The notes: a model not told the origin generated them from the letters alone. A stretch of DNA of 64,000 nt from Prevotellaceae bacterium (GCA_029219385.1 JAQXTH010000034.1:1-64000), one strand, 5' to 3'; numbered from the stretch's first letter, positions 3,001-41,200 are shown. A program made the numbers and translations.

Positions 3001-3798
3001 TTTGGCGGCTTTAAGTTTTTCGGCATATTGTTTATATTCCTCATCAGAGAGTTCGCTTATTACTGCCCGGTTGGCCTCTTCGAGCGCGGTATTGTATGCA
3101 TCGGCCAACTCCTTGGGATAGAAGCCCGGGTCGGTGCCGGCAGTGAAATCGAGATTGAGGCTCGTATAATAATCAATAAGATCTTCAAGATCGCCAAGAG
3201 GATCGGAGGTTTCATAAACCTGATAGACATCCCAAGGGTTGGTGTCTTGATAACCCCACACCCAAATCTGCTCGGCAGCAAACCAGCCCCAGTTGCAAAG
3301 ATATGACCACGAGGGTTCACTTCCGTCTTCATAAGAGTAGCACATCACTACAGAAGTTGCATCAAAATTGCTTTGACCATTCCATGCAGCTGAAGAGTCT
3401 GCCGCACAATAAAAAGCAACATTGTAGGCACTGTCAGGCGTGCTCACAAGACGCACGTCACTGTTTGAAGCAGCCTGGCTACCTCTAAGACCATTTTTGC
3501 CCAGATATTTTCCCTGAGCCAACTGGCGCAAGAAGTAAGTAGGATCACCTGTGCGAAGATCCACCGGTCCTTCTTCCACTTCAAATACACAGTCTTCGGT
3601 AAAGACTGTTTGCAAAACGCCCGCTCCGATATAGCGATAACCATTGTTGGCATTGTCGGAAATGCCCTGAATGGCAATCGTATCGCCCGATTTAATCTCA
3701 TTGTATGCCTTGCGGCTGCCGAGATTGTAGCGTGCGTCAGCTTCATTACACAATGCACTGACAACAATCAGCGCAAAAAAGAGTAATAGCTTTTTCAT
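1..3798 (-). CDS. Secreted multidomain protein with F5/8 type C (discoidin)-like domain and two dockerin type I-like repeats; C-terminus runs off the left edge of the window
   Basis: Not in the supplied ORF track because no stop lies inside the window. Read by eye from ATG at 3798 (MKKLLLFFALIVVSALC signal peptide) in one frame to position 1. Contains ...FWHSTYHATADPGTYHYLQADIS... (F5/8C-like) and DVNGDGEINSSDVVYIYNAISG / DVNGDGEINSSDVVAVYNIIAG. Confidence 0.85.
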   Translation of the reverse strand, partial: MKKLLLFFALIVVSALCNEADARYNLGSRKAYNEIKSGDTIAIQGISDNANNGYRYIGAGVLQTVFTEDCVFEVEEGPVDLRTGDPTYFLRQLAQGKYLGKNGLRGSQAASNSDVRLVSTPDSAYNVAFYCAADSSAAWNGQSNFDATSVVMCYSYEDGSEPSWSYLCNWGWFAAEQIWVWGYQDTNPWDVYQVYETSDPLGDLEDLIDYYTSLNLDFTAGTDPGFYPKELADAYNTALEEANRAVISELSDEEYKQYAEKLKAAKEAVENAYIDITEGYYYIVSAYSDFMNSQKVEMGCFMNDANNYIQWKALNTTDPAFIFYLTKDADGYVDVKSYNTDRYWSAPNENKSSQAIQTTTKPDKKQVFNAIGGGQWQIWNTFCTQHYHPESNGGGSGKSGKLVTWNSSGKGSSSTWYVRAINDPNLIDSLDAVKAQNIITAELKTLCNTADIAYNKLFVYNTDLEQPLLTNVTDDDPDDCQISSNASDPAEGLSFHALIDGDPESFWHSTYHATADPGTYHYLQADISNNPQKAFQIYLRRREGTYGNYDRPTAANIYVTNDTTGQWNGTAKWQLAKTVTGLETASEVYECFTPGIELAEPASYIRFEVIEKSNAPSRNLNGYPYFNLSEFQIYPVVLNKETSQYYYIAGMKEAADKLLQAVADARALVEANTATQADIDNLQAALDAVDNLFADTTSLRSLITSCTNLASSIEVGTSICQAPEQGIVDNFVNAIETATEAGVFATPLNKEAIDNAYNALKQARHDFLYALNLPKADKWYYISSLDESRNDNPDLYTNGAVIYVKEYGADKSLTWDLNESEELSYNPMAMWHFIPVEDDTYSLTYYVQNLGTGLYIGDYPTYSVGVKTSKTPVLYQLNINGGQPGLIARKGDNPGYSLHAATANKEIVGWSAGGKTASAWDIVEVDDTYVDCITLTTHTNNIDVFAVPYAFADIAENNEDAKTYAIKKMTLDKETDITTIELYEKNEFAAGEPCILVTGDPTIEDSEETTIVIATPTEIAQEMKPANGLVGLLTTEKIPLGAAWFTGKEITNTEASISAHTGYIDATLYQGEVEGVETAMTLTVKGLNWPEGGETGDVNGDGEINSSDVVYIYNAISGEGAGEGADVNGDGEINSSDVVAVYNIIAGSSAGAPSFVLPGEEVVEASEIIEPDNNTDAIISCAIGSSDDLTKIPFTISLSNSIDITAVEGNVRLPGGLGPDKVVYSEDDEDFVYDASARWKKTHALTAFAGTEAHGQDAFFFSIVSS
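361..510 (-). repeat. Two tandem dockerin type I-like Ca-binding repeats within the CDS above
   Basis: Translated repeats DVNGDGEINSSDVVYIYNAISG and DVNGDGEINSSDVVAVYNIIAG are almost identical at protein level and highly similar in DNA. Confidence 0.8.
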
Positions 3799-4608: not shown

Positions 4609-6909
4609 TTATTTCACTATCAATATCTTTGCCACAATACCATTCTTACCCTCGGCATCAGAGCCTATCACGTAATAAATGCCCGTTGCCACACGCTTGC
4701 CTTGACTGTCGCGGCCATTCCAAGTGAAAGTTCCACCCAGCGATGTGCCCTGCGCCACCACCTGACCCGAAACTGTGGTAATCTTCACATCTGAGTCAGA
4801 CGTGAAACCCGTGACACGAATCCTGCCCGTATATTCAGGTCTCACAGGATTGGGAAACACTTTTATGTTGTTCTCATTGAGTGTTTCGGCCGGAGTGGTG
4901 GCATCGCCACGATAAGAGAGCAATCCGAGGTCGGTGCCTATCATCACAAGTCCGTTGTCGGAATTTATGGCAAGCGAGAGAATGCAGTCTGAAATCAAGG
5001 GAGAGTTTTCCGTGGTATAGTGGGCGATAATCTCCAAACCATCGGCCGAGACAAGATAGAGGCCGTTGTTTGTGGTGCCAATCCACTTGCGATTTGCCCC
5101 ATCGACCACAATACATTTCACAGGAACTCCGTCGAGCAAGTAATCGGCATAATTGGTGCCGTCGTTGCGCGGAATAACAGGCTGGCGAAACACCACCGAG
5201 CCTGAAAATATCTTAGAGGGGTCTTCGAGCACAAAAACACCCTGGTCGGTGCCTATCCACAATTGTCCATTTTGGTCGAAAACGGCAGTATAGAGCAGAC
5301 TAATGGTGGCCGTGGTTCCGTTTTGGTTTGTGAATGTCTTGCAGAAAACAAACTTGTCGTCAGCCTTATTGTCAAGAGTTCCGTTATAATCAAGACAAGC
5401 AATGCCTGCGCTAAACGTGCCGGCCCAACGACGGTGTGTCATCCAAACGCAACCATTTTTTTCGAACACAAAATTGTCAAACGTGGGATAGCCGTCGATC
5501 TCATCAAAATAAAACCCTTTCCACTGCATATCGGGAGTAAGCACCCTCACAATGGTGTCTACCTGATTGTTGAACATCCACAGATTGCCCTTTTCGTCAT
5601 ACTTGGCTCCACAAACTCTGTTATAGCGCAGATAGTTGGTAGAATTGGGCAAAATACTTTTCAGAGGCGAGTTGTCGCAATTAAAGAGTTTGTGGAAACG
5701 ATAATTCCTAAATTCATACAGTCCGCCCTCAGACGAAGAAGCAAAATGGTGTGTGGGGTCTTGGGGGTCTTGAGCCACAGAGGTGACGTTAAGGAAGTTG
5801 ATGCCCGTCTTTATCTTAATGCTGTCTTCACTAAAGTTAATCCAATGTCCGTCTTCAAAAGCCATCACGGTGCCCTCGTATGATGTCTTGCCCGAATAGG
5901 CCAGCGCACCACCTGCCACAAGCAGTCGACCCGACGGTGTGAAACTTATTTCAGAGAAATAATTCCTTATGGGGCTGTCGGGAATAATGGGGTTACTCAC
6001 AGCCTTGAGGGTATCGCTATCTATCGTGAAAGCCTGCAAGCCATTGTTGTTGCGCGAAGCCCACAAACGTGTTCCTTCGCTACACAATGCGACAAAATCA
6101 TTGGCAATATCATATACAGTTGCTTGATCGTCGGCATCAACAAATGCAATCTTCGTCTTGCTCTGCAACACGAGTTTGTCGCCGTATGGATTGAAAGAAG
6201 AAAACGTTCCTTTGCACTTGAGAGAAATATTCAGCGTCTCAGTATCAAACGAATAAAGGCCGTCTCCATACATTGCATAATAGCGATTGTTAAAAGGAAT
6301 AAAATACTGTGGTTTTGAACTGCTTTTAAGCGTCCAGTTTGAACGGTCGAGCAGATTCTTGGTTCTATCGCCCACCATTATTCCATCGGTCACTCTCAAA
6401 ACAAAACGGTCGCCGTCGGTCACGGCGGCACGCACCATTGTGCCTATTTCATAAGCGTTTACAAACTCTGCCTTCTTCAGGTTTATCACCACCAGACCAA
6501 AATTGGTAGAGAGCAAAGCCTCGCTGTCTACTATGGTAAGATTATTGATTGTCTTGTCGGCAAACGACGAGTTCTTGTATTGGGGAATATTGATGATGCT
6601 GTCGTTGACACTGACAATATCAATGTTATAGTCCTCGTAGACCAAAACTATCTCTGCAAGTTCCTCGCAAAAGACAGCGTGAGTGATGTTTGTGCCGCTC
6701 AATCCGGAAAACTTGGAATAGGTCTTCACCGTTGTGTCACCCGGCTTGTATGAAAACAAAGCTCCCCCCGCAACAGCATAGATTTTGTCGCCCACAGGAA
6801 AACTGTATGTCACATTATGGTATGAAAGATAAAACTTCCAATCATTATCGACCGACCATATCGGCATTGCCATCAATAGAGAGGCAACCACACAGAGTAG
6901 TTTACGCAT
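4609..6909 (-). CDS. porZ: PorZ-like type IX secretion system beta-propeller protein with C-terminal sorting-like domain
   Basis: 766 aa; N-terminal signal and DWKFYLSYHNVTYSFPVGDKIYAVAGGALFSY; repeated propeller blades (LWIGTDQGVF, KWIGTTNNGLY); C-terminus VFPNPVRPEYTGRIRVTGF...GIYYVIGSDAEGKNGIVAKILIVK. Confidence 0.75.
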   Translation of the reverse strand: MRKLLCVVASLLMAMPIWSVDNDWKFYLSYHNVTYSFPVGDKIYAVAGGALFSYKPGDTTVKTYSKFSGLSGTNITHAVFCEELAEIVLVYEDYNIDIVSVNDSIINIPQYKNSSFADKTINNLTIVDSEALLSTNFGLVVINLKKAEFVNAYEIGTMVRAAVTDGDRFVLRVTDGIMVGDRTKNLLDRSNWTLKSSSKPQYFIPFNNRYYAMYGDGLYSFDTETLNISLKCKGTFSSFNPYGDKLVLQSKTKIAFVDADDQATVYDIANDFVALCSEGTRLWASRNNNGLQAFTIDSDTLKAVSNPIIPDSPIRNYFSEISFTPSGRLLVAGGALAYSGKTSYEGTVMAFEDGHWINFSEDSIKIKTGINFLNVTSVAQDPQDPTHHFASSSEGGLYEFRNYRFHKLFNCDNSPLKSILPNSTNYLRYNRVCGAKYDEKGNLWMFNNQVDTIVRVLTPDMQWKGFYFDEIDGYPTFDNFVFEKNGCVWMTHRRWAGTFSAGIACLDYNGTLDNKADDKFVFCKTFTNQNGTTATISLLYTAVFDQNGQLWIGTDQGVFVLEDPSKIFSGSVVFRQPVIPRNDGTNYADYLLDGVPVKCIVVDGANRKWIGTTNNGLYLVSADGLEIIAHYTTENSPLISDCILSLAINSDNGLVMIGTDLGLLSYRGDATTPAETLNENNIKVFPNPVRPEYTGRIRVTGFTSDSDVKITTVSGQVVAQGTSLGGTFTWNGRDSQGKRVATGIYYVIGSDAEGKNGIVAKILIVK

Positions 6910-13001: not shown

Positions 13002-13037
13002 AAAAATCCCGATTGCCACGCGGCAATCGGGATTTTT
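13002..13037. terminator. Bidirectional rho-independent terminator between convergent genes
   Basis: Perfect hairpin aaaaatcccgattgcc-acgc-ggcaatcgggattttt. Confidence 0.9.
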
Positions 13038-13064: not shown

Positions 13065-16000
13065 TTATTTCACCTGTATCTTTTCTCCATCAATTACATA
13101 AATGCCCGGAGCAAAAGGAATAACGTGTACACCCTCCACGAGTTGGTCAAACACCAGACTGCCGTCTACGGTGAACACTCTCATGCGGCGAGGCTCACGA
13201 TTGATCACGCGAATGGCGTTGCCCATCGGAGTGTAACGCTTCATGGAACCCGATTCAACGGCGTCGTAGACAGAGGTATCATCGTCGGGCTCAACAACCT
13301 TCACCGGTGTGCGCATCAACTTAAACTCAGCCACGTCTATCGCCGTCCAACCCGTGAGGTTGATAATCAAACCAAGCGTAACGGGCATTTCCTCGCCCAC
13401 GGTGAACGCAACAGTCTGATTTGCCAACGTCGTGTAGGCCAAAGAATTTTTCTCATAATTACTCATGTCGACAAACTCATCACCCTTTACAACGCACACG
13501 AAACTACTGTCGGTATTAAACGTGCCACCCTCGCTTGGAGAAACAGTCAGAGTATAATATCCGGCAGGCAGAGTGACGGTCTGATAGAGTTGATGGTTCT
13601 TCAACGTGTCGGCAAAGCCATAATAGCCTGTTCGGAAATTGATGTCATAATTCTGGCTCTTATAGACATGAGCACCTGTGGTTGCCTTGTCGGTCACCAC
13701 GGCATTGCCGATCACCCACTTAGAGTCGTCGGTGCCGGTCTTAAGTTCGAGCAGGTTAGAAGAGTTGCTGGTGCTCACCGAGTTATCGGTGTGGAGGAAC
13801 GGAGCCTTATAATTGGTGAGATAGTCGGCAGAGACATCACCCGGTTCATCGCCGTCGAAATCGAGTGTAAAGACACCGAGAGCCGTGGTCCAGGCATCAC
13901 CGTCGGGACCAAAGCCGAGACGCACACCCGTCATTTCATTACCCGTGGCATCAATAAGATTGCCCGAGTTTTGATTAAACTGATAATAAACTTTCAAACC
14001 ATTGGTTGTCTTGGCAGTCTCTATGTCGTCGCTGGAAATGGGCTGGTTGCAGAACGACTTGAGTTGGGTCTGCGACAAAGCCTTGCTCCAAATACGGAAT
14101 TCGTCGAAAATACCCTTAAACGAAGCAGTGTCTGAGCTGACGGTCAGCGAACCGCTCCATGCCGGGCAATTAAGACTGAGACGCAAACTCGGAGCTGTGA
14201 ACAACTCTGCGTCACGATAGAACTTCACATTGCCCGTGGAGAATGTAATTGCATAGTGATGCCACTCGTCTTTTATAATAAGTCCCGGGTCGGAAGTAAC
14301 AAATTTACCATTGACATATACACCCACCGAACCATCGTCGTTGGCCCATGTCTTAAACGCACCATCATCGGTGGCCATGGTGAGCGCACCCTTTATGGAA
14401 GCAGGATAAAGCCATGTATCGATAGTAAACGCACGAGTGGTCGATGTAAAGGGTGTGGGCACGGCAAAACGCTCACCGTTGCCACCCATAGACAATCCGT
14501 TGACGGGGTCGGCATTGCTCACAGCAAAGACTTTCTTCATTGTCTTGGAAGTCTCGCCTTGAGCATTTGAAGCCTTGAGTGTCACATTATAATAACCCGG
14601 AGCCTCGGGAGTAAATGCCGTGTTTTGGGCATGAATCACATAGTTGCGCTTTCCGCTCACATGGTTAATCTCCCATTGCCAACTTTCAGGGTCATAAATA
14701 GCCTTGTCTTCAAAGAACACCTTGTCGCCCAAAAGTATCGCCGTGGGCTGAACGTTGAAATCAACGTATGGAGCCGAGGCTATGGCGTTCACCTCTTTGG
14801 TGATTGACGACGAGCCGGCTGCATTGGTCACAGTTAGAGTAACAGGATAAGAACCCACCTCAAGGAAGCGTGCTGCAGCGTTGGTGGCATTGACCTCCTC
14901 AATATCGGCACCCGGCATAGTCCACTTATATGTGCAGTTCACACCGCTCGAACGGTTCACAAAATTAAAGTATTTGCTTGCCGGCAGATTGTTTTCGGTG
15001 ATTTCAAAATCAGCAATCGGCTTGGGCAACGCCTCTGCGGTAAATACTTGCGAAGCGGTAAGCACTTCTCCGTTTTTATTAGTGGCTGTCAGTTTGAGAG
15101 TATGCTCACCCTCGCTCGGGAAAGTGATATAAGGCGAATTGGTCGTGCCGATAACTTCATCTTGGTCATCCATTGTCCATGCCAAGGTTTTTGCCGAAGC
15201 GGATACCGTGGCCGAAATGCGCACCGGTGTATGAGCATAAATCTTTTCTGTAGGAATATTGATGCTGCCTGCTAACGTGTTTTCTGTGTCAAGGAAACTA
15301 TTGTCGACAATTGGCAACACCTTGCCGGCATCGCGGATAACTGCATGGTGGCCACGAGCATAGTCGCGCATTTTTATCACACCGTCTTCTTCAAATATGT
15401 CTCCCTTGAAATAAAGCACCAGACTGTCTTGTTGAGACGGGTTGGCAATCTCCTTTTTATAGTTCCGCATGATTTCTATCGCGCTGAGCGGACGGTTCCA
15501 CAGACGTATCTCGTCAACCAAAGCATTCATGAGACCTTTGTTTTCTACACGACCTATATAGAAGTTGTCGAAAGCCTTCACCTTGCTATAACTACTGTAA
15601 AGAGAACTCTTCTTCTGCACTCCGTTGACATATATCCTCAGATAATTACCGTCAATCACCACGGCAACATGGTTCCATGTGTCGAGTGACAATATATTTG
15701 AAGGACTGCTATAAGAAGCCGAAGTGCTCCAACCGCCCAGCACGCCACGGTTGTAATTCATGGCCGTAAAGAAATAAGACGGATTACCCATTTGGTTCAC
15801 ATAGTTGTCTGCAACATGGGGCTTTATCCAATATTCTATTGTTCCACCACGAGAGGCCTTAAAGTTCACTCCTTCAACGGCGGCCATTGTCTCCTGCATA
15901 TCCAAAACATTGTTGTCATCGCCCTCTGTCTCTATCGGACGAACCACAAGGTTTGACTGTTCTGAAACCACCATCTTGTTGCGATATTTATATACTGCTG

Positions 16001-17666
16001 CAACACCGTATGCCTTGTCGGTGGGGATAAGCGGTGTATATGAACGAGTGTCTACATCTACCGAGTCGATCACCCTATTGTCACAATATATATAATATTT
16101 CTCCATGGGCAACGATGTGGTGACAGGTTGGTGCCATGTCAGAGTTCCGTTGTCAATCATAAGGTTGGTAGGCGCATTGATTTGCTCGCCCGGCACGATT
16201 ACAGACACACGATACAATTTGCCCGAGCCGGTAATCTGCACATCTTCCACCTTAAAGGGAAATTCTATTCCCTCGCTGTCGAGTTCGTAGTCTATGATAG
16301 AAGCACTATAGAGACGACCGGTGCCACATTTCTCCAACGCCACGTTGGGATAGGTGTAGATGTTGAAGAAATATTTTATTGGTTTGCGGCGGTCGAAGTT
16401 CTCCGTCAGTTCGGTAATGTCATATCCAAACTCCATAGGCTCATAATGATAGCCATCTACCCACTTGCCGAGCATAGGAGTGAGCGGTGGGTCGGAGAAG
16501 TTGCGCGTTCCGTCGCCGGCATTCTTGAAATGATCGAGAGCCAGCGAGTCGGTCGACACGTCTGACGAAGTGTCTTGCGTGGCAGTGACGCTGAGCCAAA
16601 GCAGCGAACGCTTCGAGAAAGCAATCTTTGCCTTGAGTGTGCGCAAAGGCTCATAGTCCTTGCGTATAAAATGGCGAGTGCAAGTCCACGCCGAAGTGCG
16701 CTTGCTATTGGTAACGCTACGTCCGTAGGGGCAATAAACAAAGCCATTGTTTTCCCAACCGTTGCCCCACGAGTTGGCAATAATCCACGCACCGACCTCG
16801 TCTTTGTCTTTTTCGCCATAGACACCGTTGCTGTCGAGGTCAAACTCAATGCGGTCATCATAGCCCACAATGGTCTGGGCGTGGTCGTAAGACGGTCCCC
16901 ACTCACCGATATAGCGTTTGCCCACCACACCAAGCTGCTTGTTGGTGGGAGTGTCGGGAATTGGACCGGTTTTCATTCCCGTGGCGGCCATGCCAAACCA
17001 TGCCACACCTCCGGCATAAAAGTCAAAGTCGCCATTGTGGTTCCAAAGCCATTGCTTGAGAATTTCACGACCCTCTTCGGTCATCACGCTTTGCTCCACG
17101 TTAGTGGTCGTCCAGTCACGATTGTGGATAGTGTTATACCATTTATCATAGCCCTGCATCCAACCATAATCGGTGTCCTTACAGGTTTGGTTGCCAAAAT
17201 ATCTGGAGTAGGTCTGACCGCCATAATCAGCCACCGAGGGATTACCTACGTTTTGCAACATGGCTGCCTTTGATGTTCCCTGATAATTGTGGGCAAGCAA
17301 ATAGTTGAAATGAGAGGTAAAACGGTTTTCATCGAGCGAACCGTCATAGCCATAATAGCAGTTGCGCTCATAGGTCCACTGATAGCCAATATAGGCCGCA
17401 GCATCACACGAACCCTGATCCTGAGAAAAAATCGGTGGGAAATACTTCAACAGAGCATTGTTGAGATGATCGGGACGCTGTGTGTTTGTTCCATAGAGAA
17501 ATTTCGACCTCGCAGCTCCCGGAGCATTCTGTCTCTTGTTTTTCTGAAAGGTGAAATCTCCAATGTTGTGTTCTTCCTGAACACCGCCCGTCAGCTGTGC
17601 AGACGTGTCGACACTCATGCCGAGCATTATCACCGCTGCAAGCAAAATTTTGATTTTAGATTTCAT
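13065..17666 (-). CDS. Giant secreted papain-like (C1-type) cysteine peptidase with LamG and PKD domains and T9SS-like C-terminus (paralog 1)
   Basis: 1533 aa; signal peptide; FSQDQGSCDAAAY (Cys), YDHAQTIVGYDD (His), AWIIANSWGNGW (Asn); two LamG-like blocks (IEYWIKPHV..., FTIDTWLYPA...); PKD-like PVTLTVTNAAGSSSITK; C-terminus APGIYVIDGEKIQVK. Confidence 0.85.
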   Translation of the reverse strand: MKSKIKILLAAVIMLGMSVDTSAQLTGGVQEEHNIGDFTFQKNKRQNAPGAARSKFLYGTNTQRPDHLNNALLKYFPPIFSQDQGSCDAAAYIGYQWTYERNCYYGYDGSLDENRFTSHFNYLLAHNYQGTSKAAMLQNVGNPSVADYGGQTYSRYFGNQTCKDTDYGWMQGYDKWYNTIHNRDWTTTNVEQSVMTEEGREILKQWLWNHNGDFDFYAGGVAWFGMAATGMKTGPIPDTPTNKQLGVVGKRYIGEWGPSYDHAQTIVGYDDRIEFDLDSNGVYGEKDKDEVGAWIIANSWGNGWENNGFVYCPYGRSVTNSKRTSAWTCTRHFIRKDYEPLRTLKAKIAFSKRSLLWLSVTATQDTSSDVSTDSLALDHFKNAGDGTRNFSDPPLTPMLGKWVDGYHYEPMEFGYDITELTENFDRRKPIKYFFNIYTYPNVALEKCGTGRLYSASIIDYELDSEGIEFPFKVEDVQITGSGKLYRVSVIVPGEQINAPTNLMIDNGTLTWHQPVTTSLPMEKYYIYCDNRVIDSVDVDTRSYTPLIPTDKAYGVAAVYKYRNKMVVSEQSNLVVRPIETEGDDNNVLDMQETMAAVEGVNFKASRGGTIEYWIKPHVADNYVNQMGNPSYFFTAMNYNRGVLGGWSTSASYSSPSNILSLDTWNHVAVVIDGNYLRIYVNGVQKKSSLYSSYSKVKAFDNFYIGRVENKGLMNALVDEIRLWNRPLSAIEIMRNYKKEIANPSQQDSLVLYFKGDIFEEDGVIKMRDYARGHHAVIRDAGKVLPIVDNSFLDTENTLAGSINIPTEKIYAHTPVRISATVSASAKTLAWTMDDQDEVIGTTNSPYITFPSEGEHTLKLTATNKNGEVLTASQVFTAEALPKPIADFEITENNLPASKYFNFVNRSSGVNCTYKWTMPGADIEEVNATNAAARFLEVGSYPVTLTVTNAAGSSSITKEVNAIASAPYVDFNVQPTAILLGDKVFFEDKAIYDPESWQWEINHVSGKRNYVIHAQNTAFTPEAPGYYNVTLKASNAQGETSKTMKKVFAVSNADPVNGLSMGGNGERFAVPTPFTSTTRAFTIDTWLYPASIKGALTMATDDGAFKTWANDDGSVGVYVNGKFVTSDPGLIIKDEWHHYAITFSTGNVKFYRDAELFTAPSLRLSLNCPAWSGSLTVSSDTASFKGIFDEFRIWSKALSQTQLKSFCNQPISSDDIETAKTTNGLKVYYQFNQNSGNLIDATGNEMTGVRLGFGPDGDAWTTALGVFTLDFDGDEPGDVSADYLTNYKAPFLHTDNSVSTSNSSNLLELKTGTDDSKWVIGNAVVTDKATTGAHVYKSQNYDINFRTGYYGFADTLKNHQLYQTVTLPAGYYTLTVSPSEGGTFNTDSSFVCVVKGDEFVDMSNYEKNSLAYTTLANQTVAFTVGEEMPVTLGLIINLTGWTAIDVAEFKLMRTPVKVVEPDDDTSVYDAVESGSMKRYTPMGNAIRVINREPRRMRVFTVDGSLVFDQLVEGVHVIPFAPGIYVIDGEKIQVK

Positions 17667-17711
17667 ATCATTATGTTTTTAGTTGTTATTCTCCTTAATA
17701 TATTATATGAT

Positions 17712-20700
17712 TTATTTCACCACAACCTTATGCCCGTTGGCAAAATAAACACCGGGCGCAAGAGGAATGCGCTTGTTGCCCGAAACATATTCGTTAAACA
17801 CACACTGTCCGCCCACATTGTAGACCGCCACACTGATAGTCTCGTTGCTGACAATGCGCAACGCTCCCACCTCTCCGCTGAAAGTGCCAATGAGACCTTT
17901 GTCGAGAGCATCGTAGGCATCGCCCACACCATCGGCAATCTGAGTGGAAGAAGTGACGTTATACAAGGCAAACGACTTCACATACATCGTATATGAGTTG
18001 TCGCTCGACAGGTTGAGAATCATTCCGAGGCTTATGTTTGTATTGTCATCAATCACGTCAAACTCCAATTGCGACTTGTCGCTCAGCAGACAAGAAGCCA
18101 GAGCATCGTCAATGGTCTGATTGTTCACAATCGTATCGCCATAGCAAACCACCAACCGGCTGTTTTGAGGCGAGAATGTCGCACCCTTGTTTAATTTAAA
18201 GATATAATGACCTTGTGGCAATGTGACAGTCTGATAGAGACGCTTGTTGTAGATAGTGCCAAGGTCATATCTTGTGGTGGCACACAGCGTGTTGTCCATC
18301 AGCGAATCAACAAACACCGTGCTGATGGTATTGTCGTCAACTTGTCGCGGTGAGTCAAAAACCCATGTTGAGTTGTCGGTCTCGGTGAGCAGTTGCTTAG
18401 CTCCCTTGCGCGACGCAGTGACCGGAGTGCCGTCTGAAAGGAACGGAGCCTTATAGTTGGTGAGATAACTGTCTGAGACATCGGTCATCACTATATCATT
18501 TCCAAAATCGAGCGTAAACACACCGGGCGAAACAATCCATGCGTCACCATCGGGACCAAAGTTCACGCGCTTGGCATCGTAGCCATTGCCCGAACGGTCG
18601 ATCACGTCACCTCCGTTTTGGTTGAAGTCATAATACACGCAAAGATTGTCGTGCGAAACAGCGTTGTCGATTGGTTTGTTACATACGGCTTGGAATTTAG
18701 AAGCATCAAACGCTTCGCTCCACATACGCAACTCGTCAATGTAGCCGTTGAAAGGACTGTCGCTACGCCCGAAATTAAACACCTCGGGCCAAGTCGGCTT
18801 CGTATATACCGATGTGGCATTGAGCGTAGTCTTTAATTCCGCGTCGCGATAAATGCTGATTTTTCCTTTGTCAAACACAAGGGCATAGTGGTGCCACTGA
18901 TTGGTGACAGGTAAATAATAATTAAGATATTTTGTCTTATATGTGATTGTATAGTATCCTTTGTCTGTGCAATTAGTGGAAAGGTCGCCAAAAGTAAATG
19001 CACCGGCTCCGGCATAGACACTCGGGTTCATCCACCACTCTATGGTAAACGACTCTTGGTCGGCGGCAAACGGGCGGGGAATTTCCAGACTCTCATCGTT
19101 GCCTGCAAACACAAGTCCGTTTTTGGCATCGGCATTGCTCACACAAAGAGCACGGTTTTTGGTCACCATGTCAGACCCCGCATTGTTGAACGTCTGAAGA
19201 GTGACATCATAATAGCCCGGTGCAGGAGGCACAAGTGAGGAGAACTGTCCGTTTACCTGCAAATAGCGTTTGCCATTGGTCAATGTCCACATCCAGCCCG
19301 TGGGATTTCCTTTGCTCTTGTCTTCAAGATAGGTTGTCTCGCCAAGAATGATGTTGGCGGGCGCAACATTAAGTTTCGATGAAGGACGGGCCTCATAGAC
19401 CTCCACGCTCTTGGTCACAGAGGCCGTGCCGGCACTGTTGGTGGCATAGAGAGTAATGTCATAAACTCCGGGAGAATCAAATATTGTATTAACATTTGTG
19501 AGATAAACATCTTCGCGTGAACCAATTGACCAACGGTAACTGCAATTCACACCCGTCGTGCGGTTCACAAACGAACATGGAGTTGCAACGGCAACCCTCT
19601 CGGCCGACATCTCAAAATCGGGTGTCGGCAACACTCCTTCAATCACGCTAACCTCTTTTTCTGCCCTAAGTTGTTCACCATTTTTGTCGGTAGTAACAAG
19701 AGCAACCGTATAGGTGCCTGGCTTGCTATATGTGATATAAGGCGACTGGCTATTATAGTTCTGCTTTGTTGCTCCGGGAGTTTCCCACTTCCAGTCTGTG
19801 ATATTCACACTGCCAATGCCGGCAAACAAAGTCGGACGGTTCACATAGACCGAATCGGCAATCACAATCGAGGGGGTTATCTTAAACGTGCTGCCCTTCA
19901 CCACGTTGGTGTTGACCACACTCGCAATGTTGCCTTGTGCAAATATGCCATGGTTGCCACAAATAAATTCCTCAACCCTCTCTTCGCCATTGACATTTAT
20001 CAAATTCATTGGCAAATAGACCAAGAGGTCTGACTGTGAGGCAGGATTTGCCACGGGGAAATCTTTGCTTGAATACAGCTCGGCTTGAGTGCGGGCCTTG
20101 CGCCACACACGAAATTCGTCGATCTCTGCACTAAACGGTTTATCGGCCGTGCCAATCACAATGTCTTGCAATGCCGGAATGCCGCTGCTGCCAATAGAAG
20201 TGATACTGCCTTTTTTCATTGCGTTCACATAGAGCGTCATCACATTTTCGTTTACAACAATGGCAATATGCTGCCAAGTGTTGGCCTTCACAGATTTAGC
20301 AGATGTTGCAATCTTGTCGTTGTCGTTCCAACCGGCCACAGCCTGTCCGCTGGGTGTCACCTCGAAGAAGAAGTTGCTCTTGTTGCTGCCACAAATATAA
20401 TAATTGTTCTGGCCGACGTTGACGGGGTTGATCCAAAACTCAATTGTGCCCGAATTGAGTTTGCTCGTTATGGCGTTTGGTATCACAAGACTCCCTTCTT
20501 CGATTTTCAACGTCTTGTTGTCGCCACCGGGCAGAGAAGACGAAATGCCCACCGGATTGCTTTTTGCCGACTCAAGCAATCTGCTTTTATAGCCATATAC
20601 GGCCGACACGCAATAAGATGTCGTTTGCCCTGCGTCTCTTTCAACATTATATGTCATGGTGTTTGCCGAAACACTGTCTACAAGCACATTATTCTTATAT

Positions 20701-22304
20701 ATATAGTATTCCTGCAATTTCATGCTCGTGTTGCAGGGCTTGTCCCATTTCAACACCATTCCCTGGAGAGTGGCGTTGAGTGGAGGATTGATAGCCTCGC
20801 CCGGCACCACCACGCTAATCGTGACATTATAGCAATCGGCATCCTTGCCGATAAAAACCGTGTCGATGTCAAAGGGAATTTCTATACCATTTTCCGTTTC
20901 ATAACGATAGTCGATAATCGAAGCCTTATAGATATGTCCGTTACCCGCTCCGTTTGAAATCTTTGTAGTAAAGAAATATTTCAGTGGTTTGCCGGGGTCG
21001 TATGCACTGCTAAGATCCGTAAGGTCATATCCAAACTCCATGGGCTCATAGTGGAGACCGTCAACATACATTCCCAACATTGGAACCTCGGGATAGCCGC
21101 CCTCCTCCGAACCATTGCCGGCATTCTTAAAACTTGTCATATCAACCGAAACCAAAGGCTTCGTGGCAGATGTATCGGGATTTACTCCCACGCTGAGCCT
21201 CAACTCATTGCGGTGAGAATAGTCCATCAACAATTTAATCGTGCGGTTGGGGAATACATTTTTGCGAGCGTATGTCACGTATGGCTGCCAGAAATAATTA
21301 CCGCCCACGCTGCCCACCGGACCGGCAAAGCGATATGGCACATACGACCAACCACCGTTAGACCAGCCCGTGCCCCACGAGTTGGCAATAATCCATGCAC
21401 CTTTCTCGTCGGCCTCTGCCTCGCCATAAATACCGTCGCCGTCAAAGTCAAATTCAAGACGGTCGTCCCAACCGATAAGCGTCATGGCATGGTTAATTTC
21501 TGTGCCCCATTTTCTGATGTAGTATTTGTTTACGGCACCGGCCTCTCTGTTAGACGGGGTGTCTGCCACGCGCTCCGTGGTAATGCCCGTCATGGCAAGA
21601 GTGACATAACACAATCCGCCGCTATAAAAATCCGTGTCACCATTATGGTTGTAGAGCCAACGCTTGGTGGCCTGTCGGCCTTCTTCTTTGGCCAATGTTT
21701 GGGGGAATGTATAAAAACCCTCGGCGCGATTAAACATGGCGCGATGCCATTTGTCGTAGCCCTGCATCCAACCCGAGTTGGTGGCTCGCCAAGTGTAATA
21801 GCCTATGGTGTTTGAATTGGTGCGCCCATCATAGTCTACCGCATTGGGACAACCGTTGTCGCGCTCGATTTCTTCTTTTGAAGAGTTCATGTAGGTCTGC
21901 AACCAACCAAAAAACACAGCCATCTGGTTCTCGGGATTTTCACCCTCAAGATTTCTCAAACTATTGAGCTCGTGGGTGAATATATAGCCGGTAAACGAGG
22001 AACACATACACGAAGGACCCGCCTGATAAAAATAAGGCGGAAAGTGTTTGGTCAACGCATTGTTCCAGTGGTCGGGCAACTCCTCGGGAGTGGCAGAGGG
22101 ATTGGCATAACCCTTGCTCTTGGCTGCCCCGACTGTGTTAATGCGGTTTCCGCCGGCAACACCAAGTTCCTGCTTCACGGGGGGAACATAATCATAATCG
22201 GGCAACGCATTATAGTCTACTTTTATCTGCGCTCCACACAAACCCGCCACCGACAACAACATCAGTGTGATAAAGAATTTCGATTGGTTGTAAAATATAT
22301 TCAT
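17712..22304 (-). CDS. Giant secreted papain-like cysteine peptidase with LamG and PKD domains and T9SS-like C-terminus (paralog 2)
   Basis: FYQAGPSCMCSSF (Cys), INHAMTLIGWDD (His), AWIIANSWGTGW (Asn); IEFWINPVN..., FTIEWWMNPS... LamG-like; C-terminus APGVYFANGHKVVVK. Start moved from 22370 to ATG 22304 (MNIFYNQSKFF) because promoter elements lie at 22338-22367. Confidence 0.85.
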   Translation of the reverse strand: MNIFYNQSKFFITLMLLSVAGLCGAQIKVDYNALPDYDYVPPVKQELGVAGGNRINTVGAAKSKGYANPSATPEELPDHWNNALTKHFPPYFYQAGPSCMCSSFTGYIFTHELNSLRNLEGENPENQMAVFFGWLQTYMNSSKEEIERDNGCPNAVDYDGRTNSNTIGYYTWRATNSGWMQGYDKWHRAMFNRAEGFYTFPQTLAKEEGRQATKRWLYNHNGDTDFYSGGLCYVTLAMTGITTERVADTPSNREAGAVNKYYIRKWGTEINHAMTLIGWDDRLEFDFDGDGIYGEAEADEKGAWIIANSWGTGWSNGGWSYVPYRFAGPVGSVGGNYFWQPYVTYARKNVFPNRTIKLLMDYSHRNELRLSVGVNPDTSATKPLVSVDMTSFKNAGNGSEEGGYPEVPMLGMYVDGLHYEPMEFGYDLTDLSSAYDPGKPLKYFFTTKISNGAGNGHIYKASIIDYRYETENGIEIPFDIDTVFIGKDADCYNVTISVVVPGEAINPPLNATLQGMVLKWDKPCNTSMKLQEYYIYKNNVLVDSVSANTMTYNVERDAGQTTSYCVSAVYGYKSRLLESAKSNPVGISSSLPGGDNKTLKIEEGSLVIPNAITSKLNSGTIEFWINPVNVGQNNYYICGSNKSNFFFEVTPSGQAVAGWNDNDKIATSAKSVKANTWQHIAIVVNENVMTLYVNAMKKGSITSIGSSGIPALQDIVIGTADKPFSAEIDEFRVWRKARTQAELYSSKDFPVANPASQSDLLVYLPMNLINVNGEERVEEFICGNHGIFAQGNIASVVNTNVVKGSTFKITPSIVIADSVYVNRPTLFAGIGSVNITDWKWETPGATKQNYNSQSPYITYSKPGTYTVALVTTDKNGEQLRAEKEVSVIEGVLPTPDFEMSAERVAVATPCSFVNRTTGVNCSYRWSIGSREDVYLTNVNTIFDSPGVYDITLYATNSAGTASVTKSVEVYEARPSSKLNVAPANIILGETTYLEDKSKGNPTGWMWTLTNGKRYLQVNGQFSSLVPPAPGYYDVTLQTFNNAGSDMVTKNRALCVSNADAKNGLVFAGNDESLEIPRPFAADQESFTIEWWMNPSVYAGAGAFTFGDLSTNCTDKGYYTITYKTKYLNYYLPVTNQWHHYALVFDKGKISIYRDAELKTTLNATSVYTKPTWPEVFNFGRSDSPFNGYIDELRMWSEAFDASKFQAVCNKPIDNAVSHDNLCVYYDFNQNGGDVIDRSGNGYDAKRVNFGPDGDAWIVSPGVFTLDFGNDIVMTDVSDSYLTNYKAPFLSDGTPVTASRKGAKQLLTETDNSTWVFDSPRQVDDNTISTVFVDSLMDNTLCATTRYDLGTIYNKRLYQTVTLPQGHYIFKLNKGATFSPQNSRLVVCYGDTIVNNQTIDDALASCLLSDKSQLEFDVIDDNTNISLGMILNLSSDNSYTMYVKSFALYNVTSSTQIADGVGDAYDALDKGLIGTFSGEVGALRIVSNETISVAVYNVGGQCVFNEYVSGNKRIPLAPGVYFANGHKVVVK

Positions 22305-22337
22305 ATTGTCTGAGATTTTTATTATTGCATTAGGTAG

Positions 22338-22367
22338 CAAATATAACAGATATTTTTCTATCTCAAA
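22338..22367 (-). promoter_or_regulatory. Bacteroidetes-type promoter (-33 TTTG / -7 TATATTTG) for protease paralog 2
   Basis: Minus strand TTTG-N18-TATATTTG, matching TTTG/TAnnTTTG at the expected spacing, about 34 nt upstream of ATG 22304. Confidence 0.7.
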
Positions 22368-22541
22368 CAAAATATATTACCAAATCATTATATTTTTATC
22401 ACTAAAAACGCCTTTCTATTCAAACCTTAACCACAACCGAATAAAAATGCGCTCCAACGCTATTGCACTCACTTGATTTCCACCACTTTTTTGCCACGCT
22501 GTCAGTGACGCAAAATATGGTTAATCATGAATGTTACTCTT

Positions 22542-24005
22542 TTATTTCACAAGCGGAAAATCGTCGGTGCGAAACGGCACAACGGGCAAACCGTAGACCG
22601 ACTTGAGATTGCCCTTGGCAAAGGGTTTGTAGCAATATCTCACGGCAATGGGTTCTTTCACCTCCGATGCCTCCACGCTGACCCGACTGCCCGAAGTCCC
22701 GACGCGAGCCTTGTGGAACACACTATCGGGGCCACAAATCTCAAAGCCCTCAATCCTCACGTTGCGGTCAAAACCCTCGGCGGCATCATTAAAGTCTATC
22801 ATCGCCTTACTGCCCTCAATGGTCATCGACTTGAAAGTGGGATTTTTACATGCCACACCCTCTATGCCGTATGCTTCTGCCAATGCCCAATAACAAAGAC
22901 GGTCGCCCACCTCTTTTTTCATCGAGGGGTGAATCTGCCAATACTCATAATCGGCCACAAGGTCGTTGGTCGAAACCATGCCCATGTTGGGCAACATCGA
23001 CTGGGCCTTGAGTTGCTGCTCACGCAATAGGCACGACATAATCGGTGGTTTCACCCACCAATATTCAAACGGACAAATCTCTACATAATAAAACGGCAAA
23101 TCACCCATCGCCCAACGCTTGCGCCACTCACCGACCATGTTGACAAAACGCTCGGCATACCTCTCACACTGATATGAAACATTGGCCTCGCCTTGATACC
23201 AAAGGAAACCCTTTATGCCATAACCCACAAAAGGGTGAATCATGCCGTTATAAAACACCAACGGCAGATCGCGCTGTATGTTGTAGGCAGGCTTCACCTT
23301 GCCGACTTGGTCAAACACGGCTTCGCCAAGATCTATGTCTTTATAGCCCTCAAGCAACTCGCGAGGAGTCCAGCCCTCCACGCGCGTTGCCCCAAGCGAA
23401 CTGTTTATCAACCCCACGGGACAACCAAGAGCCTCCTGCAACCTTATGCCAAAGAAATAAGCCACCGCACAAAACGACGCTGCCGACTTGGGGTTGCAGT
23501 CTTCCCACCTCACCGTCACAGTGTCGGTGGGCACTTTTTGGGGCGAAGTCGGCACGGTGACAAACCTTATCTTGCCGGCATATCGACCCGACAAAGAGAT
23601 ATAATCGTTAGACCCTGCTGTGGGACAACCGGCAAAGCCCTTGAGAGGCATTTCCATGTTGCTCTGTCCCGAAGCAAACCAAACCTCACCTATCAAGACA
23701 TCGTTGATAACAATTTTTTCCTTGCCACAAGCAATCTCCACACTACCCGGCTCAAAGGTGGCACGCGGTGTCTTCAACTTTGTCTGCCAGCGTCCCGTGT
23801 TGTCTGCCACACACTTGGAGCGCACACCCCACGAAGCCTTGACCGTCACCGCCTGACGGGCCTCTGCCCATCCCCAGACATTCACCTCTTCTTGTTGCTG
23901 CAAAACCATACCGTCGCCAAACAACGGGCCCACCGACAAACGAGCTTCTGCCACACAAACCGACAACAATGCTACTGCACACGCCAAAATATTTTTCATA
24001 TTCAT
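22542..24005 (-). CDS. Sialate O-acetylesterase (SGNH/GDSL-like)
   Basis: GPLFGDGMVLQQQEEVNVWGWA, IGEVWFASGQSNMEMPL, GLINSSLGATRVEGWTP, GFLWYQGEANV. Confidence 0.92.
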   Translation of the reverse strand: MNMKNILACAVALLSVCVAEARLSVGPLFGDGMVLQQQEEVNVWGWAEARQAVTVKASWGVRSKCVADNTGRWQTKLKTPRATFEPGSVEIACGKEKIVINDVLIGEVWFASGQSNMEMPLKGFAGCPTAGSNDYISLSGRYAGKIRFVTVPTSPQKVPTDTVTVRWEDCNPKSAASFCAVAYFFGIRLQEALGCPVGLINSSLGATRVEGWTPRELLEGYKDIDLGEAVFDQVGKVKPAYNIQRDLPLVFYNGMIHPFVGYGIKGFLWYQGEANVSYQCERYAERFVNMVGEWRKRWAMGDLPFYYVEICPFEYWWVKPPIMSCLLREQQLKAQSMLPNMGMVSTNDLVADYEYWQIHPSMKKEVGDRLCYWALAEAYGIEGVACKNPTFKSMTIEGSKAMIDFNDAAEGFDRNVRIEGFEICGPDSVFHKARVGTSGSRVSVEASEVKEPIAVRYCYKPFAKGNLKSVYGLPVVPFRTDDFPLVK

Positions 24006-24061
24006 AGCACACTATCTTTAAGCTTAAATCATTATCTGCAAGAGCAATTTTTTCAGAGGTC

Positions 24062-27000
24062 TTATCTTACCTCCACTTTAGTTCCATTGATTACATACAA
24101 ACCTCTCACAAGCCTTATCAACCGCCCGGCCTCGGCATATCCGTTAAATACATCGGTGCCGTCGGTGGCTGTGATCCTCACTTCTGTGGGTTTGGTTATC
24201 CTGACCCCTCCGGCTTCAATTGCAAAGACAGCCGAAGTGTCAAACGTCTCAACATCATCAACGGCATCGGGATCGTCAGCCACAATGTATTCAAACGGCA
24301 AACACATCAGTTTGAAAGACTCGATTGCCACAACTCTACTATTTGTCATGTTGAAGATCACGCCCAACGAAACGGTGGAGGCATCTTCCATCACGTCGAA
24401 TGTCATTTCCTTGTCGTAGAGCAAACCATAGCCGAGCGCATCAGCCAAACGAGCATTGCCCACAAGCGTGTCGCCCTCGTTTGCCACTAAGTAACTGCCC
24501 GACTCAGAAAATGCCGCATTGGGTTCTATGCAAAGCCTGTAGCGTCCGGCTGGCAGGGTGACGGTCTGATAAACGCGGTGGTCGCTGATTGAATTGGCAA
24601 AGCCCATATCGCCCGTGGTGCAAATGAAATCACTGTTGAAATAGGTATCTACATGCACTCCGGTGGTCACCTCGTTTTCGGTCACTGCATTTTCCACCAC
24701 CCACGAAGATTTGCTTGTCTCTGTCTCCAACTCATAGTAGCGCGACACATAATTTGTTGAATTGATGCTGCGAGAAGTGTGTAGGAACGGAGCCTTATAG
24801 TTGGTGAGGTAATCGTCGGTCACATCTGCCTCGACAGCCTTTTCGCCAAAGTCGAGCGTGAAGACACCGAGCGAAGACATCCAAGCATCGCCGTCGGGAC
24901 CGAAGTCAAGACGTGTGGCCAAGTATTCCGCGTCGGTCTTTGACTCCACGTTGCCCGAAGTCTGGTTGAAATCATAATACATCACAAGCGAGCCGTGGGT
25001 TTTCATCGAGTCGGGATTAGCAACCGGTCGGTTGCAAGTCTCCTGCAACTCATCGAGAGAGAGAGACTTGCCCCAGAATTTAAACTCGTCTATCATGCCC
25101 TCAAACGGACTGTCGGCCGAACCCATGGTGATGTTGCCGCCCCACGCCGGCGACGTGAGCGACAAACGGCTCGACGGACGAGAAAAGACCTCTCCATCGC
25201 GATAGAACACCACCGTGCCCGACTTGCAGGTGACTGCATAATGATGCCATTCGTTTGAAATCACATAACCCTCGCCCGAAGCCACGCTCTTGTTGTTGAC
25301 CGACAAAGTAGTCTCACCATTGGCGGCAGTGGTCATGCTAAACACTCCATCGTCGCTATACATATTGGCCGCACCCTCGCATTTATATGGGAAAAGCCAA
25401 TAGTCTATGGTGTAGGCCTTGGAAGGAGCACCCATAGGACTTTTAAAGACAATTCGCTCACTGCCACCGCCAAAATGAAGACCATTGCCCGGGTCGGCAT
25501 TGCTCACCATAAAGGCACGCTTTTGCGTGGCTGTCGAAGTGCCGATGTTATTGGTAACAGTCAATGTCACATCATACACTCCGGGAGCCTTGGGAACATA
25601 AGCATAGTTCTTGCCGTTGATGGCCACGTTGTGGCGATCGTTGCTCACGGTCCACAACCATTTGGTCGGTTCATATTTTGAATTATCGGTAAGAGCGACC
25701 TTTTCTCCAAGTATTATTGAGGCGGGAGTTACGCTGAAGTCTACTATCGGCATGGCGTTTGTCACCCTCACATATTTGGTGACCGAGGCAGAGCCCGCTT
25801 CGTTTGTCACCGTCAGCGTAACAGGATGCATGCCCGTCTCAAGATACGAGGCCGAGGTATTGGTCGTTGTGGCCGTCTCTGTCTCGGTGCCCGGCATTGT
25901 CCAACGATAAGAGAGGTTGTCGCCCACCGAGCGATTTATGAGACTCACCTTGTCGCCTGCCACCACGCTGTCGACCGACAGTTCAAAGTCTGCCACCGGC
26001 ATGGGCTGTGGATTAACGGTCAACTGCTTGGAAACCTCAACCATATTGTCGCTTGCGTCATAAGCCTTGAGAGTAACAGTATAGGTGCCGGCCTTGTTAA
26101 ACATAAATTCGGGCACCACACCCTCGGGCGCAGAAACCACAGCCCCGGGGGCACTCCATGCTGTCTTTGTTGCGCCAAACGGAATTTCAACAACGGGAGT
26201 CACCGTCTCACCGACACAGACCTCTGCTTTTTCAAAAGCAAAGTTCAAACCTTCGAGTGATGTCGTGCCATCGTCAAACAGTGCAGCATCTTCCAACACC
26301 TTGCAACCTTCCAGCCCCGTTATGTCGACATCGCGACCGGCGGCACAATCGGGCAATATGGTCCGATCGCCACGAACAACGGAAGCCATGTTGAAACACG
26401 TCAAGAGATGAGGCTGAGTGGCAGGATTTTTCACACGCTTGTGCATTGTCGACTTGATCTCGTCAACCGTGCGACAACAATCCCAAATGCGAAACTCATC
26501 AATTTTACCATTAAATTTATAATAACTGTCGCCTATCATGAAATTTGAAATCGGGGCCAGACCCGAATAGGCAGAAGATGTGAGCACATTTTTCTTCACA
26601 CCATTCACATAGAGCGTCATCACATTGCTCTTGATTGTGACCGCCACATGGGTCCATGTGTTGACGGGCAATAAACCCGAAGTTGAAGTAATGCGGTCTG
26701 AGCCTGTGTTCCAGCCCACATAGATATTTCCACTGCTCGTGGTATGAAACAAGAATGTGCCCCACCCAAAGCCAATCTGCTGATTATAGTTGGTTGTGGA
26801 ATATGGGTTTATCCAAAATTCTATGGTTGCATCGTGCAATTCCTTGGGCACGGCATTATTGATTGTGATGCCATTGCCTACCAACTCCAATACTTTATTG
26901 TTGCCCTCATCCATAGGCTTGATGTTATAGACCTCATTGCTTCGGGCCGACTCGTTGATTTCTTCACCATATTTATATATCGCACTCACACTATATGGAC

Positions 27001-28621
27001 CTACCTCCATGTCGCTGACATCATAGGTCAATGTTGCAGCATCGAGTTCGGCAATCTTTTCTTTATCCTTATAAACAGCATATCCTTTGAGCGGCATGTT
27101 AGATTTTTTAGGAGACTGCCACGATAGAGTCTTGCCTGCCAACGACAGATTGAGAGGCTTGTATATCTGCTCGCCCGGCACGATAACACTTATCATCGTT
27201 GTTTTGCCCCTGTTGAGAACTGCCACCGTGTCTATTCTAAACGGTATCTCAATGCCGTCGCGCTCAAATTCATAGTCAAGAATAGAGGCCTTGTAGATAT
27301 TGCCCTTGCCCAAAGCCGAATATTTTGTGGTGATATAGAAGAAGTATTTCAGCGGTTTGGTGCGGTCGTATTGCTCGGTGAGGTCTGTGAGGTCATAACC
27401 CAACTCCATAGGTTCGTGGTGGTAGCCATCCACCCAACGACCCAACATGGGAATGTCATTGCTGCCCGTCTTGCCGGTACCCGTATAGTTGAAATGGGCA
27501 AACGAGGTGCCAAAATCGGGATTTGTGGCCGAGGTGTCTTGCGAAATGCCCGCCCACATGCAAATCTCGGGACGACGGTTGTAGTCCATCAACAATTTGA
27601 TTGTGCGCAACGGACGATAGTCTTTGCGAGGGTGATAAAACGCCGGATCCCATGTTGAGCCCGACAATCCCACACAATAGGTATTGGCATAGGGACAATA
27701 AATCAAGCCGGCATCACACCAGTTGCCCCACGAATTGGCGATAATCCATGCACCGGTCTCACCCTTTTCCTTTTCACCCACCACGCCGTTGCTGTCGAGG
27801 TCAAACTCCACACGGTCGTCATAGCCCACCACCGTCATGGCGTGGTTGTATTTCGGTCCCCATGTGGTCACATAATGACGGCCAATCACTCCGGCCTCTT
27901 CGTTGGCAGGAGTTTTTGGAAAAAGCGTATATTCCGGACCGGCCGCAACACCTATCACAAACACACCACCCGCTCCGAAACTCTCGTCGCCACAGTGATT
28001 CCACAGCCAGTCTTTTGCCATTTCAAAACCCTCGGGAGTGTCGAGAGGATACTGAAATTTTCCCATCGAGCGGGCACGATTAAACATCGCACTATACCAC
28101 TTGTCGTAGCCCTGCATCCAACCCACGTCTTTCTCTTCGGTGTCTTGAAGACCAAAATAGCGCGAATAGGTCTGCCCACCATAGACCGTGACGCTCGGAA
28201 TACCGTTTTTCTGAGCCATCACACTCTCGGGACAACTGTTGCTGCAGGTGAGCCAGGTGAAGTGGGAGGGCAGTTGATAGTCGGTGTTGTGCTTGCCATC
28301 GCGCTTGTAGTATGAATTTAATTCATAGCATAGCATATAGGCTACATTTGCCGACGAGCCACACGACCCACCGCTCTGATTGAATATAGGTGGAAAGAAA
28401 TCGGTCGCCTGGTTATTGACATGGTCGGGGCGCAAATCACGCGATGAGCCCGACTTGGCCACACCGTCTGCCCCTCGCCTTGCCCCAACAGAATAGTCTA
28501 TCGGGATATTCCTAAAAAACTCATACAAACCTCTGTCTTCAACCTCAAACGACTGAGACCAACCACCGTTGCACAAAAGCAACATTGCTGCCAAAATCAC
28601 ATAGAAATGCAAATGCTTCAT
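24062..28621 (-). CDS. Giant secreted papain-like cysteine peptidase with LamG and PKD domains and T9SS-like C-terminus (paralog 3)
   Basis: FNQSGGSCGSSAN (Cys), YNHAMTVVGYDD (His), AWIIANSWGNWC (Asn); IEFWINPYS..., YTIDYWLFPY...; C-terminus VRGLYVINGTKVEVR. Start moved from 28648 to ATG 28621 (MKHLHFYV) because a -7-like element overlaps 28648. Confidence 0.85.
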   Translation of the reverse strand: MKHLHFYVILAAMLLLCNGGWSQSFEVEDRGLYEFFRNIPIDYSVGARRGADGVAKSGSSRDLRPDHVNNQATDFFPPIFNQSGGSCGSSANVAYMLCYELNSYYKRDGKHNTDYQLPSHFTWLTCSNSCPESVMAQKNGIPSVTVYGGQTYSRYFGLQDTEEKDVGWMQGYDKWYSAMFNRARSMGKFQYPLDTPEGFEMAKDWLWNHCGDESFGAGGVFVIGVAAGPEYTLFPKTPANEEAGVIGRHYVTTWGPKYNHAMTVVGYDDRVEFDLDSNGVVGEKEKGETGAWIIANSWGNWCDAGLIYCPYANTYCVGLSGSTWDPAFYHPRKDYRPLRTIKLLMDYNRRPEICMWAGISQDTSATNPDFGTSFAHFNYTGTGKTGSNDIPMLGRWVDGYHHEPMELGYDLTDLTEQYDRTKPLKYFFYITTKYSALGKGNIYKASILDYEFERDGIEIPFRIDTVAVLNRGKTTMISVIVPGEQIYKPLNLSLAGKTLSWQSPKKSNMPLKGYAVYKDKEKIAELDAATLTYDVSDMEVGPYSVSAIYKYGEEINESARSNEVYNIKPMDEGNNKVLELVGNGITINNAVPKELHDATIEFWINPYSTTNYNQQIGFGWGTFLFHTTSSGNIYVGWNTGSDRITSTSGLLPVNTWTHVAVTIKSNVMTLYVNGVKKNVLTSSAYSGLAPISNFMIGDSYYKFNGKIDEFRIWDCCRTVDEIKSTMHKRVKNPATQPHLLTCFNMASVVRGDRTILPDCAAGRDVDITGLEGCKVLEDAALFDDGTTSLEGLNFAFEKAEVCVGETVTPVVEIPFGATKTAWSAPGAVVSAPEGVVPEFMFNKAGTYTVTLKAYDASDNMVEVSKQLTVNPQPMPVADFELSVDSVVAGDKVSLINRSVGDNLSYRWTMPGTETETATTTNTSASYLETGMHPVTLTVTNEAGSASVTKYVRVTNAMPIVDFSVTPASIILGEKVALTDNSKYEPTKWLWTVSNDRHNVAINGKNYAYVPKAPGVYDVTLTVTNNIGTSTATQKRAFMVSNADPGNGLHFGGGSERIVFKSPMGAPSKAYTIDYWLFPYKCEGAANMYSDDGVFSMTTAANGETTLSVNNKSVASGEGYVISNEWHHYAVTCKSGTVVFYRDGEVFSRPSSRLSLTSPAWGGNITMGSADSPFEGMIDEFKFWGKSLSLDELQETCNRPVANPDSMKTHGSLVMYYDFNQTSGNVESKTDAEYLATRLDFGPDGDAWMSSLGVFTLDFGEKAVEADVTDDYLTNYKAPFLHTSRSINSTNYVSRYYELETETSKSSWVVENAVTENEVTTGVHVDTYFNSDFICTTGDMGFANSISDHRVYQTVTLPAGRYRLCIEPNAAFSESGSYLVANEGDTLVGNARLADALGYGLLYDKEMTFDVMEDASTVSLGVIFNMTNSRVVAIESFKLMCLPFEYIVADDPDAVDDVETFDTSAVFAIEAGGVRITKPTEVRITATDGTDVFNGYAEAGRLIRLVRGLYVINGTKVEVR

Positions 28622-41121: not shown

Positions 41122-41200
41122 GTTTATATACACATTATATATCAATGGCGAGAATGTGTCGATAAACTCACGACACACCCTCGCCATATCTTAACTCTGA

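Follow-up and report, generated by a model that had tools for sequence, protein, structure and literature searches.

Does the array of three giant proteases around a carbohydrate esterase in this Prevotellaceae genome reflect a recent local duplication serving the degradation of sialylated glycoproteins, as an earlier note on this DNA had proposed, or does it have another origin and role? We analysed a stretch of 64,000 nucleotides (GCA_029219385.1 JAQXTH010000034.1:1-64000; hereafter the window), in which the array is laid out as follows.

13002-13037, minus strand: terminator-like hairpin of 16 pairs with a T run, 3' of P1
13065-17666, minus strand: P1, C1A-type protease of 1533 aa (open reading frame and Pfam)
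17712-22304, minus strand: P2, 1530 aa, domain order as in P1 (open reading frame and Pfam)
22542-24005, minus strand: CE20/SASA-type carbohydrate esterase of 487 aa, between P2 and P3
24062-28621, minus strand: P3, 1519 aa, domain order as in P1 and P2 (open reading frame and Pfam)

P1, P2 and P3 share one order of signal peptide, papain-like domain, linker, Fn3-like segment, LamG, PKD repeats, second LamG, DUF5013 and a tail resembling the T9SS sorting signal. The open reading frames and the Pfam scan, which gave each protein two Laminin_G_3 domains, three PKD stretches and DUF5013, confirmed the architecture that the earlier note had described for the three proteins, except that the C-terminal DUF5013 had been overlooked; all three are on the minus strand and about 1,520-1,533 aa long. 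The SASA-type esterase also lies between paralogs 2 and 3 as described, at the open reading frame listed above. The most likely start of P2 is the ATG at 22304. Homology among the proteases is far above chance (P3 against P1, 1166 bits; P3 against P2, 1025 bits). The count of three paralogs holds for the window, but the genome has six papain-type members in total. Two family members (L058:9923-16729 and L060:9800-16582) are longer, at about 2,260 aa, and extend further at the C-terminus. Elsewhere in the window, a caspase-type protein (Peptidase_C14, 57 bits; 40231-41187, minus strand) is encoded close to an RND efflux gene.

The catalytic nature of the N-terminal domain was examined mainly in P3.

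27620-28456, minus strand: papain-like catalytic region of P3 (aa 56-334), with Q82, C87, H260 and N296

Profile matches and structural modelling support the assignment of this domain in P1-P3 to the papain fold and to the C1-type peptidases. Pfam Peptidase_C1 (cut-off 20.7 bits) matched P1 (21.6 bits) and P2 (21.1 bits) above the cut-off, and 53 of 56 family members were matched; P3 scored 15.7 bits, which is under the cut-off. The AlphaFold2 model of P3 aa 56-575 (pLDDT 89.9, pTM 0.85), in which a helix begins at the Cys, retrieved cathepsin S in Foldseek (E 5.9e-7, prob 1.00, TM 0.67 by target length), in agreement with the papain-like domain of the earlier note. The four residues Q82, C87, H260 and N296 (P3 numbering) are invariant in the six paralogs and kept in the 56-row alignment. 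They are likewise kept in essentially all of 101 open reading frames, where the His motif was found in 100 and the Asn motif in 98.

The spacing of the first two residues deviates from that of papain. Papain has Gln19 and Cys25, namely an x5 spacing. Gln-x4-Cys was found in all 101 open reading frames (94 by pattern and 7 by eye), one residue shorter than the papain-type Gln-x5-Cys. We judged this to be a variant rather than an exclusion from peptidase family C1A, because the x5 spacing is typical of C1A but not definitive. The P3 orthologs read GSCGSC at the catalytic Cys, and we considered whether the invariant Cys corresponds to Cys22 of papain, a dead enzyme, rather than to Cys25; this is unlikely because the invariant Cys opens the helix in the AlphaFold2 model. 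The shorter loop, the sub-threshold score of P3 and the LamG and PKD domains that make up most of the chain would fit a protein that is mainly an adhesin with a weak or inactive papain-like domain. On the other hand, an inactive enzyme is not expected to keep the four catalytic residues essentially invariant over 101 diverged open reading frames, and the modelled Cys is located at the helix N-terminus as in papain, so that we regard the adhesin reading as improbable.

An active C1A-type enzyme, our preferred reading, would share with papain and the cathepsins the fold and the order of the catalytic residues. It differs from them in the short Gln-Cys loop, in the giant C-terminal chassis and in a DxDxNGxxGE-type loop between the His and Asn, which may bind calcium. 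The best solved-structure match of the family profile was Cwp84 of Clostridioides difficile (E 1.5e-6; PDB 4ci7, 4d59), which is likewise secreted and joins a C1A peptidase to a beta-sandwich of comparable length, with surface-attachment repeats thereafter (PMC4089489). However, Cwp84 has the Gln-x5-Cys spacing (Gln110, Cys116; PMC4089489), and it attaches by cell-wall repeats without LamG, PKD or DUF5013, whereas the present proteins end in a T9SS-like tail. Its beta-sandwich is lectin-like, and the linker module of the present family has no significant PDB fold match.

16182-16658, minus strand: linker module of P1
20790-21260, minus strand: linker module of P2
27164-27619, minus strand: linker module of P3 (aa 335-486), modelled as a beta-sandwich

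This linker of about 150 aa was modelled with confidence as a beta-sandwich (AlphaFold2, pLDDT 90.2), and the shared linker motifs pointed out in the earlier note were confirmed and are conserved in the family at large. No Pfam family was found for it in the scans of P1-P3 and family members, and no PDB fold matched below E 0.05; a Cwp84-type lectin domain was considered and rejected for lack of a significant fold match. In the same genome, this linker follows a GH2 enzyme in two further proteins; that of contig C10 has the whole LamG-PKD-LamG-DUF5013-tail chassis, and that of contig C54 the linker and tail only. C10-like forms also occur in sister genomes, as does a third arrangement, GH2-linker-dockerin, encoded beside T9SS genes. 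These arrangements tentatively suggest that the linker is an undescribed beta-sandwich that couples either C1A protease or GH2 heads to the common chassis, forming a plug-in platform for surface enzymes in gut Bacteroidales, an idea that we hold with less than even confidence. GH2 enzymes with the protease-family linker were observed at L020:8882-14668 (with the full LamG-PKD-LamG-DUF5013 chassis) and L021:3392-8590, and the GH2-linker-dockerin form in three sister genomes at L172:3928-7575, L173:4280-7954 and L175:2911-6558.

The tails raise the question of the export route, for which the same contig supplies candidate machinery.

4609-6909, minus strand: PorZ, full-length T9SS A-LPS delivery protein (NF052228, 724.5 bits; cut-off 260)

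We assign PorZ to the proposed export route and not to the protease array. Other T9SS genes on the contig encode PorP (197 bits), PorK (500 bits), PorL (120 bits), PorM (519 bits) and PorN (209 bits), and the presence of this machinery in the genome supports the secreted multi-domain architecture of the earlier note. At their ends, the tails show motifs such as VYxxxGxxVF...GIYIxNGxKxxVK. The T9SS-like C-terminus in that note is right as to resemblance, but the tails miss the cut-off of TIGR04183, the type A sorting domain (23 bits): P2 scored 11.5 bits and P1 and P3 gave no match. Nine of 24 family members matched the model weakly, and a related copy on contig C35 reached 20.7 bits. T9SS export of P1-P3 is only likely because the tails in the window stay under this cut-off. 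Gingipains belong to family C25 and are not papain-like. As a concept, a surface cysteine protease borne by T9SS is known from the gingipains of Porphyromonas (PMC7463736), although the window tails fall under the type A cut-off.

With regard to ancestry, the six papain-type copies of the genome share 35-46% full-length identity; a fourth copy lies some 46 kb off on this contig and the others on contigs C17 and C35. The nearest relatives of each window copy are orthologs in other species. P3 orthologs show 74-76% identity over the catalytic region. P1 has orthologs with 65-66% full-length identity in three sister species, always paired there with a P2 ortholog, and P2 orthologs show 56% over the full length. 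On a 100-row tree, six separate changes are required for the six copies of the genome, which is not below the number for shuffled labels. The AU test rejected P1+P2+P3 as a clade (p = 1.75e-7), as well as one clade of the P1, P2 and P3 ortholog groups (p = 1.2e-4). By identity and phylogeny, P1, P2 and P3 are anciently diverged paralogs and not a freshly duplicated cluster; the identity matrix and the AU tests rule out a recent local duplication, and the claim to that effect falls, since the three genes are not each other's closest relatives. The rejection of the P1 and P2 ortholog groups alone as a clade (p = 0.004) is weaker in meaning. An older P1/P2 duplication is possible, because both groups join with two proteins of genome G010 in a supported clade (95/95).

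Gene order in sister species gives a similar picture of separate histories. There, P1 is paired with P2 and P3 with the esterase, and the two pairs have different surroundings. The esterase adjoins all seven distinct P3 orthologs for which flanking sequence was at hand, either overlapping or within about 20 bp by open-frame coordinates. Judged from this gene order, the window contains two separate conserved units, P2-P1 and P3-esterase, that happen to meet. The description of proteases wrapped around an esterase is correct for the adjacency here, but this is a juxtaposition of units that are apart in sister species. The esterase as a partner of all three proteases is ruled out, as only P3 orthologs carry a neighbouring esterase. 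The gaps in the window (P3-esterase, 56 bp; esterase-P2, about 237 bp; P2-P1, 45 bp) and the hairpin 3' of P1 would fit two transcription units. Where the sequence of sister species runs on, a dockerin protein comes after P3-esterase, and its ortholog is present in the window.

331-3798, minus strand: dockerin protein, 58% ortholog of the gene lying after P3-esterase in sister species

This protein has a weak F5/8-type match and belongs to a large paralogous set in the genome.

The esterase bears most directly on the substrate. It matches Pfam SASA (54.8 bits) and has the GQSNM and QIHP motifs. Among solved proteins, it is closest to Fl8CE20_II (9H4U), XacXaeA (7KMM) and PpCE20_II (9EGA), all CE20 enzymes, with 219-230 bits. 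Chains of sialic acid acetylesterase, of which 8F9O is from dog, reach 80-99 bits, with 99 bits for the mammalian sialate esterase. Although 7kmm and 9ega are titled as sialate esterases in the PDB, the corresponding papers present CE20 enzymes of xyloglucan and xylan breakdown. The SGNH core, the GQSN Ser and the catalytic His of CE20 are all present. On the other hand, the Asp of the CE20 DxH is replaced by Gln (QIHP) in the window esterase and its orthologs, and the inserted ancillary domain is absent, as the query is continuous at 222/214 where the Fl8CE20_II chain has 215-371. This domain marks one CE20 subgroup only, and CE20 members without it are known. On sequence grounds, the enzyme is CE20-like and nearer to bacterial CE20 than to the mammalian sialate esterase. 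Since both it and its orthologs have a Sec signal peptide without a T9SS-like tail, the esterase may reside in the periplasm, with the protease outside.

Specificity for sialic acid or sialoglycoproteins, as the earlier note suggested, is not supported by these scores. The proposal in full would be a locally duplicated, co-secreted set combining de-O-acetylation of sialic acid with proteolysis of mucin-like sialoglycoproteins. It is compatible with the adjacency of the genes on one strand, with the SASA Pfam family and with the QIHP site and missing ancillary domain, which recall the dyad arrangement reported for the mammalian sialate esterase (PMC12313940). Moreover, a sialic-acid role is conceivable, since a sialidase-like open reading frame on another contig matches a solved exo-alpha-sialidase with 225 bits; a supposed absence of sialidase from the genome, taken from a weak BNR_2 match, was dropped for this reason. 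This frame (L139:241-3591, minus strand) shows YRIP and Asp-box motifs and matches Pfam BNR_2 weakly. Nevertheless, P1-P3 are not closest relatives in the AU tests, the two gene pairs are separate units in other species, and the esterase is closest to enzymes on xylan-type and xyloglucan substrates. The nanA matches are also under the cut-off, though this is a weak point since the model also matches other DHDPS-family genes. We consider this proposal unlikely.

We rather think it probable that P1-P3 belong to a family of large C1A endopeptidases exported by Sec and then T9SS in uncultured gut and rumen Bacteroidales. The C-terminal tail would direct the protein via T9SS to the cell surface, and the stalk of PKD, LamG and DUF5013 would keep the catalytic head off the cell and bind a glycoprotein or a polysaccharide-associated protein. 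The protease would then cut the bound protein to peptides, and the CE20-type esterase linked to P3 would take acetyl groups off the freed glycans, probably within the periplasm. Differences in substrate among the six paralogs are more probable than one dosage-amplified enzyme. As for the substrate, protein from the diet or from plant cell walls in the rumen is a serious candidate, in which case the esterase would act on acetylated polysaccharide of plants; we put this reading slightly short of an even judgement. The relatives are mostly from Bacteroidaceae and Prevotellaceae genomes of the rumen and ruminant hindgut, the closest enzymes to the esterase are CE20 members active on plant polysaccharides, and the GH2 proteins share the linker and chassis. 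In rumen Prevotella, extracellular peptidase activity is also lowered by a cysteine-peptidase inhibitor (PMC9045265). Against this, no SusC/SusD-type genes were recognised beside the array, and the habitat of the window is inferred from relatives.

Rumen Prevotella are reported to carry out cysteine-type proteolysis outside the cell (PMC9045265), and our literature searches found no paper on this architecture or on these large enzymes of uncultured Bacteroidales. The analysis corrects the story of local duplication and sialoglycoprotein specificity, and the locus is a new branch of a known kind of enzyme. The linker, common to proteases and glycosidases alike, is its strongest new element. Genomes from the ruminant gut widely encode members of this family, in some cases as many as six diverged copies, which provides a defined candidate set.
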